Positions 6,123 to 46,764 of a stretch of 64,000 nt of DNA are shown here, one piece after another (positions within the stretch are counted from its first letter, which is position 1; every line of letters starts with the position of its first letter). The DNA comes from Choricystis sp. odSpoLacu1 (lineage: Eukaryota > Chlorophyta > Trebouxiophyceae). A program made the translations under genes and the position numbers. The notes beneath the pieces are model-generated. The model was not told where the DNA came from and did no database searches. It was given only the letters and a program-made list of their open reading frames with translations. The stretch covers positions 310,001 to 374,000 of the forward strand of contig OY253651.1 in NCBI GenBank assembly GCA_958009055.1, in the 5' to 3' direction.

Positions 6123-9078
6123 TCACCCGTCGCTGCTGCTCGCCCGCGCCTCCACCCGAGGCGCGTGCGTCGGCAGGCGCCGCCTCGCCTTCACGACGCG
6201 CGTGTACCCCTTGTGGAAGCCCTTGTGGCGGGCGTAGGCGGCGCCCACGGCCACGATGGCGACGAGGGTGAGGGCCGCGACGCCGGCGACCGCGCCCCAC
6301 CCCGTCAGCGTCAGCGTGGCGACCGCCCCCGCGGCGGCGCCACGGCTCGCGGCCGCCGCGCGGGCAGCGTGGGGCGGGGTCTGGGTGCCGGGGGCGAGGC
6401 CCAGGCGGGACTCGAGGCGCGCCGCGCCGGCCGCCAGCGCGCCGAGCGCGAGGGACGACTCAAACGCGCCGTACGAGGCGCGCGGCTCGGCGATGGCCAC
6501 CAGGGCAGCACAGGAAGGGGAGAGAGACGAGGAGGTGGAGGCAGCCGCCGCGTCGGCGGCCAGGCGGCGGCGGGTGGGGTCGCCTTCTTCAGCTGCCGCT
6601 TCAACTGCAGCCTCATCATCAGCCGACGGCACAGCCGCCACCAGGCACGCCCGCACACCACCCACGCGGGCGCGGGCCGCGTCGTCGCAGCGAGCGGCCA
6701 CGTCAGCGTCGCAAGCGGTCGTGATGGGGGCGCCGGGCGCCCAAAACTGCAGGCCGCCGCGCACCGAGCGCGCGAGCGCGGCCGCGCACGCGGGCGCGAG
6801 CGCGGACGCTCCCTTGGCCGCCAAACACGCGTGCATCGCGCCGCCCCGCCCCTTGACGCCGGCGCAGTGGGACGCAGCGTCGGCCGCGCACGCGGCCCGC
6901 AGGCCGCCGTCGGCCTTCCACTCGCGGCCGCGCGCGGAGACCGCGGACCGAACCGCTTCGACGCACGCCTCCCCAAAATCAGCGCCATCAGCGGCCGCCA
7001 CCAGGCACGCCAGCACGCGCGCCTTGCCCGCGGGCACACCGTCGCAGTGGGCTTTGCGTTCGGCGGAGCAGGCGGACGCCAGGGCCGGCTGCAGGTCGAC
7101 CGACGCCGTGGCCACGCGCTCCAGGTCGGCCACCGCCGACGCGCACGCCGCGGACAGCGCCCCCCTGTGCTCCGCCAGGCAGGCGACAACCCCGCCCGGG
7201 GCCACGCCGCCACAAAAGGCGTCCACGTCGGCGCGGCAGGCTTCCGCCAGCAGGATGTCGTTGCGGAAGTCGTGCACCTCCATGCGCACGAAGTACTCCA
7301 CCTCCCTGCGGCACGCGTCATCATGGATCCCCTCCACCCGGTCCGCCAAGCAGCGCAGCACGGTGCCGCCGCACGGCACGTCGTCGGGGAAGGGGGGTCC
7401 ACCCGGAGGGGCGCACGCGCCCGCGCACAGGGTGGCGGCGGTGGGTTGACACGCGGCGGAGAGGCGCGCGTTTAACCGAAAGTCGCGCGCCGACGCGCGC
7501 ATGTGGGCCTCGACAGCAGTCGTGCAGTCGGTCGTGACGCCAGGGCGGCTGTCAAGCACAGCGTCCTGCAGGCAGCGCAGGGCGGCGGCCCGGGTGTGGG
7601 GCACGTCGGCGCAGAGCGTGCGCAGCTCGCCACGGCACGCGGTGGCGACGGAGGCTTGGAAGTCGATGGATTCACTCATCCTCACTTCAGCGTCGAACAG
7701 GGACGCCGCACATTCAGGCGTCAACGTCCCCCTCGCATCCTGCAGGCAGCGCAGCACGGCGGCGGAGCCGGGGGGGACGTGGCCGCACGCGCGCGCGCGG
7801 TCGCCCGCGCACGCGGCGGCCAGCGGCGCGTCGAACCGGATGTCGGCCGCGGCGCGCGCCAGGGAGGCGTGCACGGCGGCAGCGCAGTCCGGGGACTTGA
7901 GTTCATCCCTGTAATCTTGCAGGCAAGTCAGCACAGGGGCGTCATCGACGTCGGCGCCCGCGTCGTCTGATTCATCGAGCTCGAGCCCACACAACACGTC
8001 CGCGTCCGCCGCACACGCGGCCCGCAGCCCGGGGTCCAGCCTGAAGTCGGCTGCACGGCGAGCGAGCAGGGCGTCCAGCGCATCGCGGCAGGCGGGCGTG
8101 AACCCGGGTTTGTGGCGCGCGGCCTCGAGGCATGCCTGGGCCGCGCCGTGGCCGGGTGGGACAGAGGCACAGAACGCGCGCTTGTCGGGCAGGCAGGTGC
8201 GGAACAGGCCACCGTTCAACCTCAGGTCGTCCGCGTTCTCCACGTCCTGGCGGAAGACTTCGTCCCGGCACTCCCAGGTGAGGCGCCCCGGCTTGACGCG
8301 CAGGCACGCGCCGACCGCGCCAGGGGCGTCGCCCGCGTCGGAGCACAGTTCTGCCACGTCCCCTTCACACGCGGCCGCCAGCTCTGCGTCTGCCGACCAC
8401 ACGGCGGCAGCATCGGCTTGGCGCTGGGAGACGACAGTGGCGCAGGCGGGAGTCAGGTCGTCCTTGGCTTCGCGCAGGCAGCCGAGCAGGGAGAATTCAT
8501 CCTCCACGTCCGCACAGAACGCCTCCAGGTCGCCCGCGCACGCGTCCGCGAGAGGGACGTCCGCGTTTACGTTGTCCGCGCGTTCGGAGGCAAAGGCCAG
8601 CAGTTCAGCGCGGCAGGGGGGGGACGCGGTCAGGGGGGACCCGGACGCGCCGCCGTCGACCAACGCCCCAATCAGGCACTCGGCCAGCCGCCCCTCGCCA
8701 GGGCGCACATCCGAGCACGCAGCATCCAGCTCGGCTTCGCAGGGACCGTTGGTGGCCAGGTCGCCGGTGCCCGCGTGGAGCAGGGCGGGCGGGTCGACAG
8801 ACACGAGCGACGCTTCGACGGCGTGGGGCGCGGCCTCTTTCTCGTCTTGGGCGGCTTCAGCCACCTCCAGGGCGGCGTCCAGGGCTTCGCCGGTGAGGGG
8901 GACGACGGACTGGGCGGCGGCGGCGGTGGCCAGCAGCAGGAGGAGGGAGGCGCGGGCGAGCTGCTGGGGGGGAAGGTTTGAAAAACGTGCGCGCGCTTGT
9001 CAGTTTTTTTCGGGCGGCGGTTGGCGCCCCATACACTGCCCCCCAAAACCACTCTCTCCACGCGCACACACGCACCAT
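6123..9078 (-). CDS. GLG1: Golgi apparatus protein 1 (GLG1/ESL-1/CFR) with Cys-rich repeats
   Basis: The coding region is a start codon alone in exon 1 (9076-9078) spliced to exon 2 (6123-8963), giving 947 aa. The spliced N-terminus MQLARASLLLLLATAAAAQS is a clean signal peptide. The lumenal part is an array of roughly a dozen GLG1 repeats of about 60 residues, each with the spaced Cys pattern seen in CxxDxxxxC and AxxCLxxxR segments. A single membrane helix (about residues 885-911, GWGAVAGVAALTLVAIVAV) and a short basic cytosolic tail close the protein. In animals the family retains growth-factor receptors and E-selectin ligand in the Golgi; the algal role is unknown. The ATG-only exon is inferred from the donor GTGCGT and acceptor CCCCAG and needs transcript evidence. 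Confidence 0.85.
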
Positions 9079-40572: not shown

Positions 40573-40911
40573 GAAGGACTCGGGTGGGCAGGCAGACGTT
40601 CCCTCGGCTTCCTTCCCTCTCGCGTCGTCCCCTCCGCCGCCTTTTTTTTTTTTCTCAAGTGTCCATGGTGTGCACTGCTCAAGCTTGTCATGTTTTAGGT
40701 TTCATTGTTGATGGACGCCGCGGTTTTGTGTGCAAACAACAAAAAAACGGTCGGCTCGGAGGTCGAGGTCGAGGCTGCGCGACGGCGCAGCCTCGACCCG
40801 CAATGAGCCGCAACGTTTTTTTTTTTTTTTTCCTTCAAAAAACACTCTCTCGCGCCCCCACTCTCCCCCCACTCCCCTCCCACACCCTCTGACACGCTTA
40901 ACCAGGCCACA
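40573..40911. other. Intergenic, 339 bp, upstream of CYP97
   Basis: It contains T-rich and A-rich tracts and the 32-nt hairpin at 40767-40798. It probably holds the microprotein 3' UTR and the CYP97 promoter. Confidence 0.5.
40767..40798. repeat. Palindrome: 14-bp arms, 4-nt loop (32 nt)
   Basis: Left arm GGTCGAGGCTGCGC, loop GACG, right arm GCGCAGCCTCGACC, a perfect match. GGTCGA is also repeated just upstream at 40761-40766. It lies about 114 bp before the CYP97 start. Confidence 0.82.
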
Positions 40912-42738
40912 ATGCGTGTCCCCACCAGGGCACACGCCCTCTCCGCCCTCCGCCCAAGGTCCCCCCACACCCCTCGCATTCCCTGCCGCCGCCTCCCCCC
41001 CACCCCCGCCCTGGCCGACGCAGCCGCCGACATCGCCCTCTTTCTCACACCAGGCGCCCTGGCCGCTGTCTACGCCCTGTACCTGGGCAAAGGCAATCTG
41101 TCGGACGGCGCGTCGCGGCTGTTGACCAATATTTCACAAGGCTACTTTCAACCCGACGTCGGCGGCGCCAACATCCCTGTCGCCACCGGCGAACTCTCTG
41201 ACCTGGCGGGCGATGAACCGCTGTTCAAAGCCCTGTACGGCTGGTTCATTGAGTCAGGAGGGGTGTATAAGCTGGCATTCGGCCCAAAGGCTTTTGTCAT
41301 CGTGTCAGACCCCGTCGTCGTGCGCCACCTGCTCCGCGACAACGCGTTCAACTATGACAAGGGCGTGCTGGCCGAGATTCTGGAGCCCATCATGGGCAAG
41401 GGCCTGATCCCCGCCGACCTGGAGACGTGGAAACCGAGGCGGCGCGCGATCGTGCCCGCGTTTCATGCAGCCTATATAAATGCCATGGTGCGCATGTTTG
41501 GCGAGTGCGCGGCCCAGTGTGCGGCCAGCCTGGATGCATCCATTGAGGCGGCTTCTGGGGGTGGAGTCACCACCAACGCGCCTGTGATCGACATGGAGGA
41601 GAGGTGCCTATCTTACGGCTTGGACGTCATCGGGCGTGGCGTCTTCAACTTCGACTTTGGGTCCACCGACACCGAGTCACCCGTCATTCGGGCGGTGTAT
41701 GGCGTGCTCAAGGAGGCGGAGCACAGGTCCACGTTTTACATTCCGTACTGGAACCTGCCGCTTGCCGACGTGCTCGTCCCGCGCCAGCGCGCCTTCCGCG
41801 CCGACCTGGCCGTCATCAACGCCACCCTGGATGACTTGATCGACAGAGCCCGTGCGACTCGCTCTGAAGACGACGCTGAAGCCTTGGCCGCCCGCGACTA
41901 TGACAACGTGTCTGATCCCTCCATTCTGCGTTTTCTCGTCGACGCGCGGGGCGCCGACCTGGGCGACACCCAGCTGCGCGACGACTTGATGACCATGCTG
42001 ATTGCGGGGCACGAGACCACGGCAGCCGTGCTGACGTGGGCGTTGTTTTCGCTCGTCCAGGACGACCGCGTGCGTGCAAAGGCAGTCGCCGAAGTCGACG
42101 CCGTGTGCGCCGACGGGCGCGCGCCCACCCTGACCGACGTCGGCTCCCTGCCCTACATCCGGTCCTGCATCGCTGAATCGTTGAGAATGTATCCTCAGCC
42201 TCCGATTCTGATTCGCAGGTCACTGGCGGCGGACACGTTGCCTCCCGGGTTGAACGGGGCAGAGTGCGGCTACCCGATTGGTCCGGGGGCAGACCTCTTC
42301 ATCAGCGTGTGGAACCTGCACCGCTCCCCCCACCTGTGGCGCGAGCCGGACGTGTACCGGCCGGAGAGGTTTGAGGAGAAGTTTGAAAACCCTGCGTTCA
42401 ATGGCGCGTGGGCTGGGTTCGACCCTGCACGGGCCGCGTCTGCTCAATACCCCAACGAAGTCGCCTCCGACTTCGCCTTCATCCCATTTGGCGGCGGCGC
42501 CCGCAAGTGTGTGGGCGACCAGTTCGCCCTGCTGGAGGCGGTGGTGTTGCTGGGCGTGCTGCTGCGGCGGTACGAGTTTGAACTGCCGGCGGGCCCCGGC
42601 GCGGTCGGCATGGCGACGGGGGCCACGATTCACACCGCCAACGGGCTCAAGATGCGGGTGACGAGGCGGGCGGACGCGCCGCCCGCGAGTGCGGCTGTGC
42701 CGGTGGGCAAGGTGGCTGTGCCGACGCGGGCGGCATGA
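40912..42738 (+). CDS. CYP97: Cytochrome P450 of family CYP97 (carotenoid hydroxylase)
   Basis: A single exon gives 608 aa, including a plastid-type leader of about 50 residues. The I-helix AGHETTAAVLTW, the ExxR motif in ESLRMYPQPPILIRR and the heme loop FGGGARKCVGDQF (Cys ligand) are intact. LRDDLMTMLIAGHETTAAV and IMGKGLIPAD are CYP97 signatures. These enzymes hydroxylate the rings of carotenes on the way to lutein and zeaxanthin, and in some algae act on other xanthophylls. The GAWAGFDPARAASAQYPNEV insert before the heme loop is shared with CYP97B and stramenopile CYP97s, while other blocks look CYP97A-like, so the subfamily is left open. Confidence 0.93.
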   Translation: MRVPTRAHALSALRPRSPHTPRIPCRRLPPTPALADAAADIALFLTPGALAAVYALYLGKGNLSDGASRLLTNISQGYFQPDVGGANIPVATGELSDLAGDEPLFKALYGWFIESGGVYKLAFGPKAFVIVSDPVVVRHLLRDNAFNYDKGVLAEILEPIMGKGLIPADLETWKPRRRAIVPAFHAAYINAMVRMFGECAAQCAASLDASIEAASGGGVTTNAPVIDMEERCLSYGLDVIGRGVFNFDFGSTDTESPVIRAVYGVLKEAEHRSTFYIPYWNLPLADVLVPRQRAFRADLAVINATLDDLIDRARATRSEDDAEALAARDYDNVSDPSILRFLVDARGADLGDTQLRDDLMTMLIAGHETTAAVLTWALFSLVQDDRVRAKAVAEVDAVCADGRAPTLTDVGSLPYIRSCIAESLRMYPQPPILIRRSLAADTLPPGLNGAECGYPIGPGADLFISVWNLHRSPHLWREPDVYRPERFEEKFENPAFNGAWAGFDPARAASAQYPNEVASDFAFIPFGGGARKCVGDQFALLEAVVLLGVLLRRYEFELPAGPGAVGMATGATIHTANGLKMRVTRRADAPPASAAVPVGKVAVPTRAA

Positions 42739-42793: not shown

Positions 42794-45378
42794 TTATCCA
42801 CCGCCCGCCTCCCGCGCCGCATCCTCTGCCGCCGCCAGCTCAGCTGCGTCTGATGCAGCTGCCGCTTGCAGAGCAGCAAGCTCGGCCCTCAGCGCGTCCC
42901 CGCGGCGTGCCCGCTCCTCTGCCCGCGCCCTGGCGCCCGCTCTCACCGTCTCGAGCTGCACGTTTGCCGTCGCGGCGGACGCCTGCCTCGCTAGCTCCCT
43001 GGCTGCCACCAGCACGGAAGGATGGTCGGGAGGCAGGCACGGCAACTGTGACGGCGGCGCAGCAGGCGCGCCTGCGTCTGTGACCAAGCCCAGCCCAATC
43101 AAAAACGCGCGGTTGGCAGCGACGCGCGCGGCACGCGCGAGCTCGAGCGCTGTCATCACGTCTCCATTGTCCTCATCAGCATCAACAGCTGGCACCCAGC
43201 GAGGCCGAGGAGGTAGCTTGGTCGCCCACTTGATGGCGGCATCGTCCAACACGATAACGTCAGCGGCCTGGATCAGTGGCGAGGGCGGCGGCAGCGGCCG
43301 TGAAACGGCGCGCGGCGTCGTCGGCGCCACCGGAGACGCAGGCAGCGCCGCCTCCCCCACCGGCCCGTCCCCGATCTGGCGTCCGTCATCATCGGGTGCC
43401 GTGCAGGCGGGTGCATAATGCACACCATCCTCCTCCTCCCACGTCAACGGCGCGCCACACCCGCCGCCGCACGCCCACTCATCGGCGGCCGCCGCGATCG
43501 CTGCCACTTCGCGTGTGACCCTCCTCCACGCGCGGCACGCGTTGCACTGAGCCCAGTGGTCGCGCGTGTTGGTGTCCGAGTGCTCGCGCAGTCGGGTTAA
43601 AAGGGCAGCGTAGGCGGGCGTCGCCGCAAACTCGGCATCGATCGCGGCGCACGGTTCCCCGTGATGGCCAAACGCGGCCAGGAAACGCTGCGTCATGGCC
43701 GACGCGGACGCAGCATCGTGGCGCACCATCAACACGACCACGATGCCAAACCCAATCGGAGTGGACGCATAGTCTTTGAAACACACCGCCGACCGGCGCA
43801 ACAGCACTTTGGGGTAGGGGCGCAGCCGTTGGTAGTAGTTGGTGTCGGTGGACCCGCGCGTGATAAACAGGATGGCGGGGACTTCTCGGTTCTCCACCTG
43901 GTCGATCGCACGGTTGACGAATCGCCACGCGACCGCTGATGGTGTGTGGGCGGGGTGAGAGAGGCGCGGGCCAGCGCAAACCGTCAAGCCCCAAACCCCC
44001 CTCCTCTCACCTGATTTAAACTCTGGGTTGAGAATGATGTGGAAGCCGGACCACGAGTTGCTCAGGCGCAGGCCGTCGTCTTCTTTGGTGTAAATCTTTT
44101 CCGCTGGTATGTTGGGGCACACGCGCGAGTTGGAGCATGGACCCAGCAGCCCTCGAATGGTGGGCGCCTCTGGCGACGGCAGCGCCAACCCAAACACAGA
44201 CACGGCGGCCTCGATCATCCAGTCGGGGGTCAGGCCCTGCCGATCGATGGCGCTGGTGGCGCCAGGTTTGGGGGCGGGCGGGGGCGGGTGGTGAGTAGCG
44301 CACGCGGGGCACGTCCACGCGCCGCCGCCGGGCAGGTCAAAAGAGGCCAGCGCGGGCGTGCCCGCGGTCTGTGACACTGGCAAGCACACGACGTGAAAGG
44401 AGGCCATGCACCCGAGTACACACGTGAGCGCGGACGCTGCCCCCGCGCCATCCAGCTGCACCACGTCACCACAAGCCGCACAAGGCGGGTGGGACGCCTT
44501 GGCACGCGCGTCCAGCGCGTGTGAGCGCGAGGTAGCTACACGTGCGGCCTCTGCCCCCGCGTCGGCGAGGGAGAGCCCGACCTGGTGCGCGGCCGAGGTG
44601 GCGGCCCCCGCGTCGCGCTTGCCGCGGCACGACGCCACGAGCGCGTCCACACGGGCGGGCGTGGAGGCTGCATCAAAGGAAGTGACGTCCTCTGCGCGCG
44701 CCCACCCGAGCGTGGCTTCGCCGTAAAAGAGAACGAGGATGGGGGGTGGTGGTGCCGGCACGCCGTCGCCAGCAGCCAGCACCGCTGCCCGCACCGCGCG
44801 TGTGTGTGCCTCCACCAGCCCCGGCAGATCGCCCGGGCGCGCGCGCGACAAGCACCACAGCACGCCCGGCCAGCGCGGTGCGCCTCGCTTGAGTGTGACC
44901 CAGATACGCGTGCCTACGGGGGGGGGTGGCGTCCGAGGGGGCAGCCTTCAGCCCGTCCAGCAACGCCACCAGCTCTGGCCCGATGCGTAGCGGGGCTTGG
45001 TCGCCAGGGGCTGTCTTCTTGGCCACACGCCGTCGCTGCAACGGCGCCTTGGCGCGCGACCGGCGCGGACCGCGGTCGCGCGGCGCCTTTTTGCGGGGCT
45101 TGAGCTCCAACGCTTCTATGGACGACAGAGGCAGGTGCAAACTGACGCCCCGTACGTCGCTGAGCTTGACTACCGCGATGTCGCCGCCGGGGCGGCCGCG
45201 CAGTATGCGGGTGACGACGCCCTAGGAGGGAGAGGGTGAGGGAGGGAGGGGTGACCACTTGCGACTTTGGTTTTATTTGATCGTGCCCCTCATGTTCGAC
45301 ACGGTCACGTCTCACGTGCAGCCTCCCAGGCTGGGGTTCGGGTAACAGGTCGCCCGGAATGAGCACTTCGCGTGGCAT
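42794..45378 (-). CDS. PWWP-PHD-Dam-like methyltransferase-CW chromatin protein
   Basis: Exons 45316-45378, 44011-45221 and 42794-43935 give about 804 aa. The order is: a short N-terminal strand-rich region (GVVTRILRGRPGGDIAVV); a PWWP domain (RIWVTLKRGAPRWPGVLWCL); a PHD finger (CAACGDVV, GCMASFHVVC, WTCPACATH); a domain resembling phage Dam N6-adenine methyltransferase (TPDWMIEAAVSVFG, YTKEDDGLRL, SWSGFHIILNPEFKS, GSTDTNYYQRL); a CW zinc finger (HWAQCNACRAWRR, EWACGGGC); and a C-terminal coiled coil. The catalytic motif IV is NPEF, not NPPY/F, so activity is uncertain. The second splice junction falls directly after NPEFKS. A C9 run (minus strand) at 44928-44936 puts PWWP out of frame by one base; with eight C the frame is open and the splice phases agree. 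It is probably nuclear, reading histone marks. Confidence 0.78.
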
Positions 45379-45682: not shown

Positions 45683-46764
45683 ATGGCGGACGGCGACGGC
45701 GCAGGGCCACGCCAACCGTCACCCGCGGCTGCCGCAGTCGCGGGCGCCGTCGCGTCGGTCGTGTCCAAAGCGTTGACACGTGAGTGCTGAGAGGGAGAGA
45801 GGCGTGTATTGTGTGGTGTTTTGCATACCTGGATCAAAGGAAAGACGGCCAGCGAGATCAACCACCACTTTTTTCCACCCCCCTTTCGTCCCACTCAGAC
45901 CCCATCGACACCCTCAAAGCCCAGCTCCAGGTCGCTGGCGCGGTGGCGCCGGGCCGGGCCGCGTCTGCAGCCGCGGTGGCTCGCCAGGTGAGTTTTTGCG
46001 AGGGAGATTGATGTGTTTTGCGACACGCCCGCTTTTTCCGCTCACACTCCCTCACTCACACCCTCCCCCAGATCATCGCCACCGACGGCCCCCGCGGCTT
46101 CTACCGCGGCCTGCCCGCCGTCCTGCTGGGCGCTGGCCCCGCGTCCGCTGTCTATTTCGGTGCGGCCGAAGCGGCGCGGTCCTCATACACCCGCTTGGGC
46201 GTGCCAGCGGCCGCCACCGAGCCCCTGGTCGGCCTCGTCGCCCAGCTGGCCGCTGGCGCAGCCTTCACCCCGGTCGACGTCATCAAGGAGAGGCTGCAGG
46301 CGGGCCGGTTGACGGGGGGCGACACCGGCAGCACACGAGCCGCAGTCGCTGCAGCGCTGCGCTCCGGTGGCCCGTCCTCCCTGCTGCGCGGCTACTGGGT
46401 CACCAACGCGGTATGGCTTCCCTGGAGTGCACTGTACTTTGAAGCCTACAGCCGGCTGAAAGAGTGGGCGGGAGTGGGCGGCCCAGACGCGCCGCCGTTG
46501 CCGCCACTCACGCAACTCAGTGTTGGCGCCACCGCCGCCGCCGCTGCCTCGCTGGCCACCCACCCACTGGACGTCATCAAGACGCGCACCCAGGTGCTGT
46601 CCGCGTCAGATCCAGGGCTGACGGCGCGGGCGGCTGCTGTGGCTGCCTGGCGGCGTGAGGGGGTGCGTGCATTTTGGGCGGGGGCAGGGCCGCGAGCCGC
46701 CCAGCTGGCGGCGGCCACGGGGCTGCAGTGGTTGGTCTATGAGAGGGCCAGGGCTGAGCTGTAG
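45683..46764 (+). CDS. Mitochondrial carrier family (SLC25) transporter
   Basis: Exons 45683-45779, 45899-45987 and 46072-46764 give 292 aa. All three repeats keep the signature: HPIDTLKAQLQ, TPVDVIKERLQ and HPLDVIKTRTQ. GFYRGLPAVLLG, SLLRGYWVTNAVWLPWSA and AFWAGAGPRAAQL mark the even helices. It is a normal inner-membrane carrier length without presequence. The substrate is not evident; the Gly/Trp-rich contact region (AVWLPWSALYF) may help classify it by comparison. Both introns interrupt repeat 1. Confidence 0.9.

Follow-up and report, generated by a model that had tools for sequence, protein, structure and literature searches.

A phage Dam-like domain joined to PWWP, PHD and CW domains in a Choricystis gene and its green-algal relatives

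The accessible part of the 2025 survey of eukaryotic N6-methyladenine (6mA) is centred on AMT1 and mentions Dam as bacterial only (PMC12695648). The 2012 PWWP survey, in its accessible part, describes algal "solo PWWP" proteins without land-plant counterparts that are "closely related to bacterial proteins", and lists Volvox XP_002949372 (duplicated PWWP) and Chlamydomonas XP_001696496 and XP_001696190 (PMC3457860). Here we describe one gene with PWWP, PHD, Dam-like and CW parts, extending from 45378 down to 42794 on the minus strand of a 64,000-nucleotide stretch of the Choricystis sp. odSpoLacu1 genome (contig OY253651.1, positions 310,001 to 374,000; the window below). The middle domain of its product is, practically beyond doubt, homologous to phage Dam, and the protein belongs to a family that is real, widely conserved and under-described.

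PHROG 111 ("DNA methyltransferase") matched the window protein at 5.4e-7 and 32 of 34 relatives, the best at 1.8e-9. For comparison we used 12 phage and plasmid Dam proteins, of which all ten scanned are PF05869 members at 5.3e-15 or better; since they were retrieved with an algal query, they form a near and not a random set. A hidden Markov model (HMM) built from the 12 found 97 of 101 algal proteins at E < 1e-3, with the window protein at 1.7e-13 in this small collection of algal sequences. Profile-profile comparison of 92 algal domains with the 12 proteins gave a probability of 98.9% (E 2.3e-17), and 98.8% when the rows with NPP in motif IV were left out (74 algal domains); the control with a reversed algal alignment was negative (0.1%). 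The initial annotation had called this domain phage-Dam-like, and these results uphold it. The PF05869 profile it proposed for checking gave no match to the window protein even up to E 1, and at E 0.1 matched 4 of the 34 relatives (best 0.009; P0062, 0.0032), all under the cut-off. TIGR01712 matched one of four sequences, at 0.037. A six-frame search of the alga's own genome with PF05869 found nothing, because the domain is intron-split and divergent.

With the Helicosporidium domain as query, tblastn gave no match among phages at E 0.01. At E 10, a composite query reached 672 phage records, not one of them covering more than 80% of it and the best of those listed lying at 3e-5, as well as 12 plasmid records with 4e-5 as the best value. 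Pattern scans aimed at close relatives picked out 20 viral and 74 genome stretches, none of which was confirmed, and therefore no donor can be named.

Fold searches on models of the relatives P0005 and P0001 revealed an adenine-methyltransferase fold, the nearest solved folds being PCIF1, E. coli Dam and T4 Dam. The second model was built because PWWP filled the PDB list of the first whole-protein model. The relatives' models also fit the methyltransferase-domain fold of PCIF1/CAPAM. Membership in PCIF1 was considered on this fold and rejected on sequence: at E 0.1 the 34 relatives matched 23 Pfam families, PCIF1 not being one of them, and a profile search of PDB sequences up to E 10 returned no PCIF1 chain. 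A sequence search of PDB found no solved PF05869 protein, so PCIF1 may lead the fold list only because the true nearest fold is absent from it. The window domain itself found no methyltransferase in a PDB sequence search, profile searches giving E 0.57 or worse. A match of artificial multi-copy RecA chains (1.4e-16) came from one 40-residue stretch near the domain end being summed, single RecA gave 0.17, and the match was judged to be chance.

Three protein searches, limited by shared words and length, gave 3, 46 and 84 hits, and 99 relatives were found (P0001 to P0100, P0004 being the window's own record). Those that bear an organism name come from Volvox, Yamagishiella, Pleodorina, Gonium, Edaphochlamys, Tetradesmus, Bryopsis (two), Trebouxia, Myrmecia, Apatococcus, Elliptochloris, Coccomyxa, Botryococcus, Chlorella, Micractinium, Parachlorella, Auxenochlorella and Helicosporidium, all of which we take to be chlorophytes. 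Chloropicon, Pseudoscourfieldia and Cymbomonas, which also have relatives, represent three Chlorophyta classes according to our look-up. No land plant or other eukaryote was present among the organism-named hits of these word- and length-limited searches. One GenBank relative carries the name "DNA N-6-adenine-methyltransferase (Dam)". P0093 and P0095 contain RAMA, CW and a Dam-like domain with NPPY in one protein, and in P0012 (Volvox carteri) two PWWP motifs were recognized by eye. The algal PWWP proteins of PMC3457860 are probably of the same family, because P0012 has two PWWP and the accessible part of that survey notes bacterial relatedness. The exact architecture had been thought undescribed in the initial annotation, and with relatives in so many green algae, one of them named Dam, the window protein is not unique.

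The gene tree broadly follows the algal lineages, 27 of its 62 inner forks being weak, and it fits old vertical inheritance without proving it. The Bryopsis paralogues P0007 and P0028 stand apart from each other in the tree.

The three histone-reader-type domains reported for the window protein were recovered as well. PWWP was recognized by Pfam or fold match. The PHD finger has all eight C4HC3 ligands by eye, and its profile matches (E 0.093 and 0.002) were both under the cut-off. CW was matched at 3.9e-5 and 24 bits, under the cut-off of 27.5, and reached 27.8 bits, over the cut-off, in the genome search. Across the 34 relatives, Pfam at E 0.1 found CW in 32, PWWP in 27 and PHD in 27. Going by their domain families, these readers are predicted to bind methylated histone H3.

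Catalytic motifs were counted over 94 rows, the window included. The motif I Asp was present in 93, only the window having Gly (LLGPC); LD stands at motif I in all 12 phage and plasmid Dam proteins, and the window lacks the Asp. The Asn and first Pro of motif IV, and its Tyr/Phe, were found in 94 of 94 rows. The N6-methyltransferase pattern quoted in the accessible part of PMC3814359 fits 18 of 101 algal domains and 12 of 12 phage and plasmid proteins. As far as the accessible parts of the sources go, PMC3814359 assigns the chemistry to the Asp/Asn and to the carbonyl group of the first Pro, PMC12435837 reports a prophage Dam with NPPY in which a point mutation in the motif led to loss of GATC methylation, and PMC6211444 reports a Phytophthora protein with a degenerate EPPH motif that showed activity in one species and none in another. 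In view of these three, an altered motif IV is neither proof nor exclusion of activity. On the tree, NPP is spread over three separate branches, namely that of Helicosporidium/Auxenochlorella, that of P0100 and a further clade that also contains the NPSY group. The motif IV classes (Pro, acid, Ser and Ala) need at least five changes, by loss or by regain of Pro, on a tree whose root is unsure. NPE as an erosion of the window copy only was considered and rejected, since NPE is family-wide.

The initial annotation had described one reading unit. We confirmed one gene; it contains two introns, and its reading frame apparently shifts by one base at a nine-base homopolymer:

45316..45378, minus strand: exon 1, start codon 45378-45376, first 21 residues, GTGAGA donor; P0005 and P0006 begin later, so no relative confirms this exon
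45222..45315, minus strand: putative intron 1 (GT...AG), placed by splice consensus only
44927..45221, minus strand: exon 2, first frame, the N-terminal part ahead of PWWP; later portion matched by P0005
44918..44926, minus strand: nine-base homopolymer (G9 on the plus strand) with one-base frame change; P0005 and P0006 unbroken at this site
44684..44914, minus strand: PWWP domain (GTRIWVTLK...RAEDV), boundaries by eye
44300..44482, minus strand: PHD finger, C4HC3, by profile match (27/34 relatives at E 0.1)
43724..44233, minus strand: Dam-like N6-adenine methyltransferase-fold domain, split by the intron 44010-43936; by PHROG 111, the phage-Dam HMM and fold searches on relatives' models
44141..44143, minus strand: motif I position, Gly (GGT) in LLGPC; Asp in 93/94 rows
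44018..44029, minus strand: motif IV, NPEF instead of NPP(Y/F), read from the window sequence
43936..44010, minus strand: 75-base intron inside the Dam-like domain, GT-AG; P0005 and P0006 are without its residues
43463..43558, minus strand: CW zinc finger, by profile match (32/34 relatives at E 0.1)
42794..43462, minus strand: C-terminal part to the stop codon, with family segment LELARxARIAANRA; a long helix in P0005's model

The spliced product has 804 amino acids, X marking the frame change, and downstream of it a single open frame of 717 codons runs from just before PWWP to the gene end. The 75-base intron (44010-43936) is in frame and stop-free. Identity to P0005 is 88.5% over the whole protein and 93% within the Dam part; to P0006 it is 64.5%. 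As read from sequence, the PHD and Dam-like parts appear to belong to the same gene and not to separate ones, and the Dam match is significant, so neither of the two outcomes that could have undone the initial annotation was found. Searching the 14.6 Mb genome (19 contigs) with the P0005 domain gave a single locus, the window's. By eye, the gene neighbours are cytochrome P450-like (40807-42738, plus strand) and mitochondrial carrier-like (about 45683-46764, plus strand), and no functional link was seen. Elsewhere in the window, at 6123-8999 on the minus strand, there is a 958-codon open frame with repeated Cys-rich units, presumably resembling Golgi Cys-rich GLG1-type proteins.

The genome also contains an AMT1-like MT-A70 gene (C1:258793-259407) with DPPW, which is likely the main 6mA writer of this alga. 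Among PDB chains it matched the "MT-a70 family protein" 7f4r best, at 3.8e-65 versus 2.7e-32 for METTL3; we take 7f4r to be ciliate MTA1. A protein at C3:69458-69778 has RAMA followed in the same frame by an MPN/JAMM-like segment (by eye), is MPND-like, and could be considered a candidate 6mA sensor. In the accessible part of PMC9963953, MPND is proposed as a 6mA sensor, yet its binding to DNA was not seen to respond to 6mA. Because a cytosine-5 DNA methyltransferase (PF00145, C14:166569-168009) is encoded in the same genome, cytosine and adenine methylation systems may coexist. The AMT1-like and RAMA genes, together with the RAMA fusions, tie the Dam-like family to adenine methylation by association only.

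The results above show the homology, the domain order, how widely the family occurs and how far its motifs are kept. From them we infer, origin and capture date included, that histone readers carry a domesticated phage Dam in this family. A Dam domain derived from phage or bacterium would have joined a PWWP-PHD-CW reader protein early in green-algal history and been kept since. The readers would hold the Dam-like domain on active chromatin with H3K4me/H3K36me-type marks, as suggested by the usual binding of such domains. The Dam-like part may still bind cofactor and a flipped adenine, because the motif I Asp, the Asn, the first Pro and the aromatic residue are kept in nearly all relatives. NPPY members might methylate DNA in the vicinity of active genes, with AMT1 working beside them. 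With NPEF and without the motif I Asp, the window copy probably has reduced activity or none, and would act mainly as a chromatin-bound adaptor. We tentatively propose a second, unrecognised adenine-methylation system of green algae, a domesticated phage Dam that is guided by histone readers and separate from AMT1, with NPPY kept in some lineages (RAMA attached in two records) and a tuned NP(D/E/S)(Y/F) in others; we hold it to be possible and short of probable. Whether at least part of the family is a histone-guided enzyme is nearly an even matter, leaning slightly to no. That the window copy is a working writer is unlikely, so of the 6mA writer or reader proposed by the initial annotation the histone-reader-type domains stand and the active enzyme in the window is doubtful.

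Several observations weigh against the main reading, that of a histone-guided Dam still active in part of the family. The second Pro of motif IV is present in only 18 of 94 rows, the other 76 having Asp (33), Glu (22), Ser (20) or Ala (1); NPPY is found in all 12 phage and plasmid Dam proteins and the window has NPEF; and Gly replaces the motif I Asp in the window alone. The gene tree branches are long and weakly supported, and no match to a solved structure had Foldseek E < 0.001. In the accessible part of PMC12695648, AT is the main 6mA context in all AMT1-encoding species, as expected of AMT1, and Chlorella variabilis, presumably AMT1-encoding, is among the species profiled, so no second 6mA writer is needed.

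These motif changes, with the AMT1-like gene in the same genome, would agree with a pseudo-methyltransferase in most of the family, that is, a non-catalytic DNA- or SAM (S-adenosylmethionine)-binding module, like METTL14 beside METTL3, through which the AMT1 complex or further factors would be recruited to chromatin with H3K4me/H3K36me. A precedent for a histone reader tied to 6mA is the PHD on AMT1's p1 partner in ichthyosporeans (PMC12695648, accessible part). However, the invariant Asn-Pro-x-aromatic and nearly invariant motif I Asp are unexpected for a drifting pseudo-enzyme, NPP appears at three separate places in the tree, the residues to which the chemistry is assigned (PMC3814359, accessible part) are both kept, and degenerate EPPH is reported to be active in one Phytophthora species, though not in another (PMC6211444, accessible part). 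We consider this reading a real possibility, though on the unlikely side. Slightly less likely again is that the window copy is a recent pseudogene, with frameshift and catalytic loss, or that a normal gene was damaged in assembly: the frame change lies at a homopolymer, and Asp to Gly is a one-base change seen in no other row, but the 717 codons are otherwise open and identity to P0005 is high, and higher in the Dam part than overall. An active methyltransferase with another substrate, either nascent or capped RNA as for PCIF1/CAPAM or a protein, is quite unlikely, as the relatives' sequences match phage DNA methyltransferases, PCIF1 is missing from their Pfam families, its fold lead may reflect the absent PF05869 structure, and the fusion to RAMA, which belongs to adenine-methylase systems, favours DNA as the substrate. 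That an unrelated domain resembles Dam by chance could be argued from the failure of PF05869 on the window and its few weak matches in relatives, but is countered by the profile and fold evidence, and with its very slight probability we regard it as refuted.

The family bears on the question of which proteins write 6mA in algae and how this mark is coupled to those on histones. Were it active, it would connect histone methylation directly to adenine methylation through one protein, a counterpart of DNMT3 on the cytosine side; were it inactive, it would offer an example, spread across the chlorophytes, of a phage-type enzyme that has become a chromatin adaptor. The interest lies in this link and in the conserved non-canonical motif IV rather than in one unique protein.

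No description of the PWWP-PHD-Dam-CW architecture was found in the literature searched; surveys by the group of Iyer et al. reportedly discuss Dam-type enzymes in eukaryotes. PCIF1/CAPAM, a cap-specific adenosine methyltransferase, differs, at 12-13% identity, and has another partner domain, WW. Phage and bacterial Dam (PF05869, PHROG 111, TIGR01712) share the motif order W.TP, LDPC, NGL, W.G, NP.(Y/F) and TDT..F with the algal domain, whereas the latter is eukaryotic, set within a PWWP-PHD-CW protein, and has the signatures PNIPAE and RLRPYPRVLLRR, which are missing from the consensus of the 12 phage and plasmid proteins. The "solo PWWP" proteins differ in that the accessible part of the survey ascribes neither Dam nor PHD nor CW to them (PMC3457860). 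The AMT1/MTA1 (MT-A70) 6mA writer complex of ciliates, early fungi and Chlamydomonas is similar in its proposed site, active chromatin with H3K4me3 (PMC12695648, accessible part). It belongs to another methyltransferase family, and the window genome has a separate AMT1-like gene. DNMT3 (PWWP, ADD and cytosine methyltransferase) and the algal PWWP-DNMT proteins would be alike in the way of working, as DNA methyltransferases guided by histone readers, although DNMT3 and the adenine-type Dam-like family are unrelated catalytic families.
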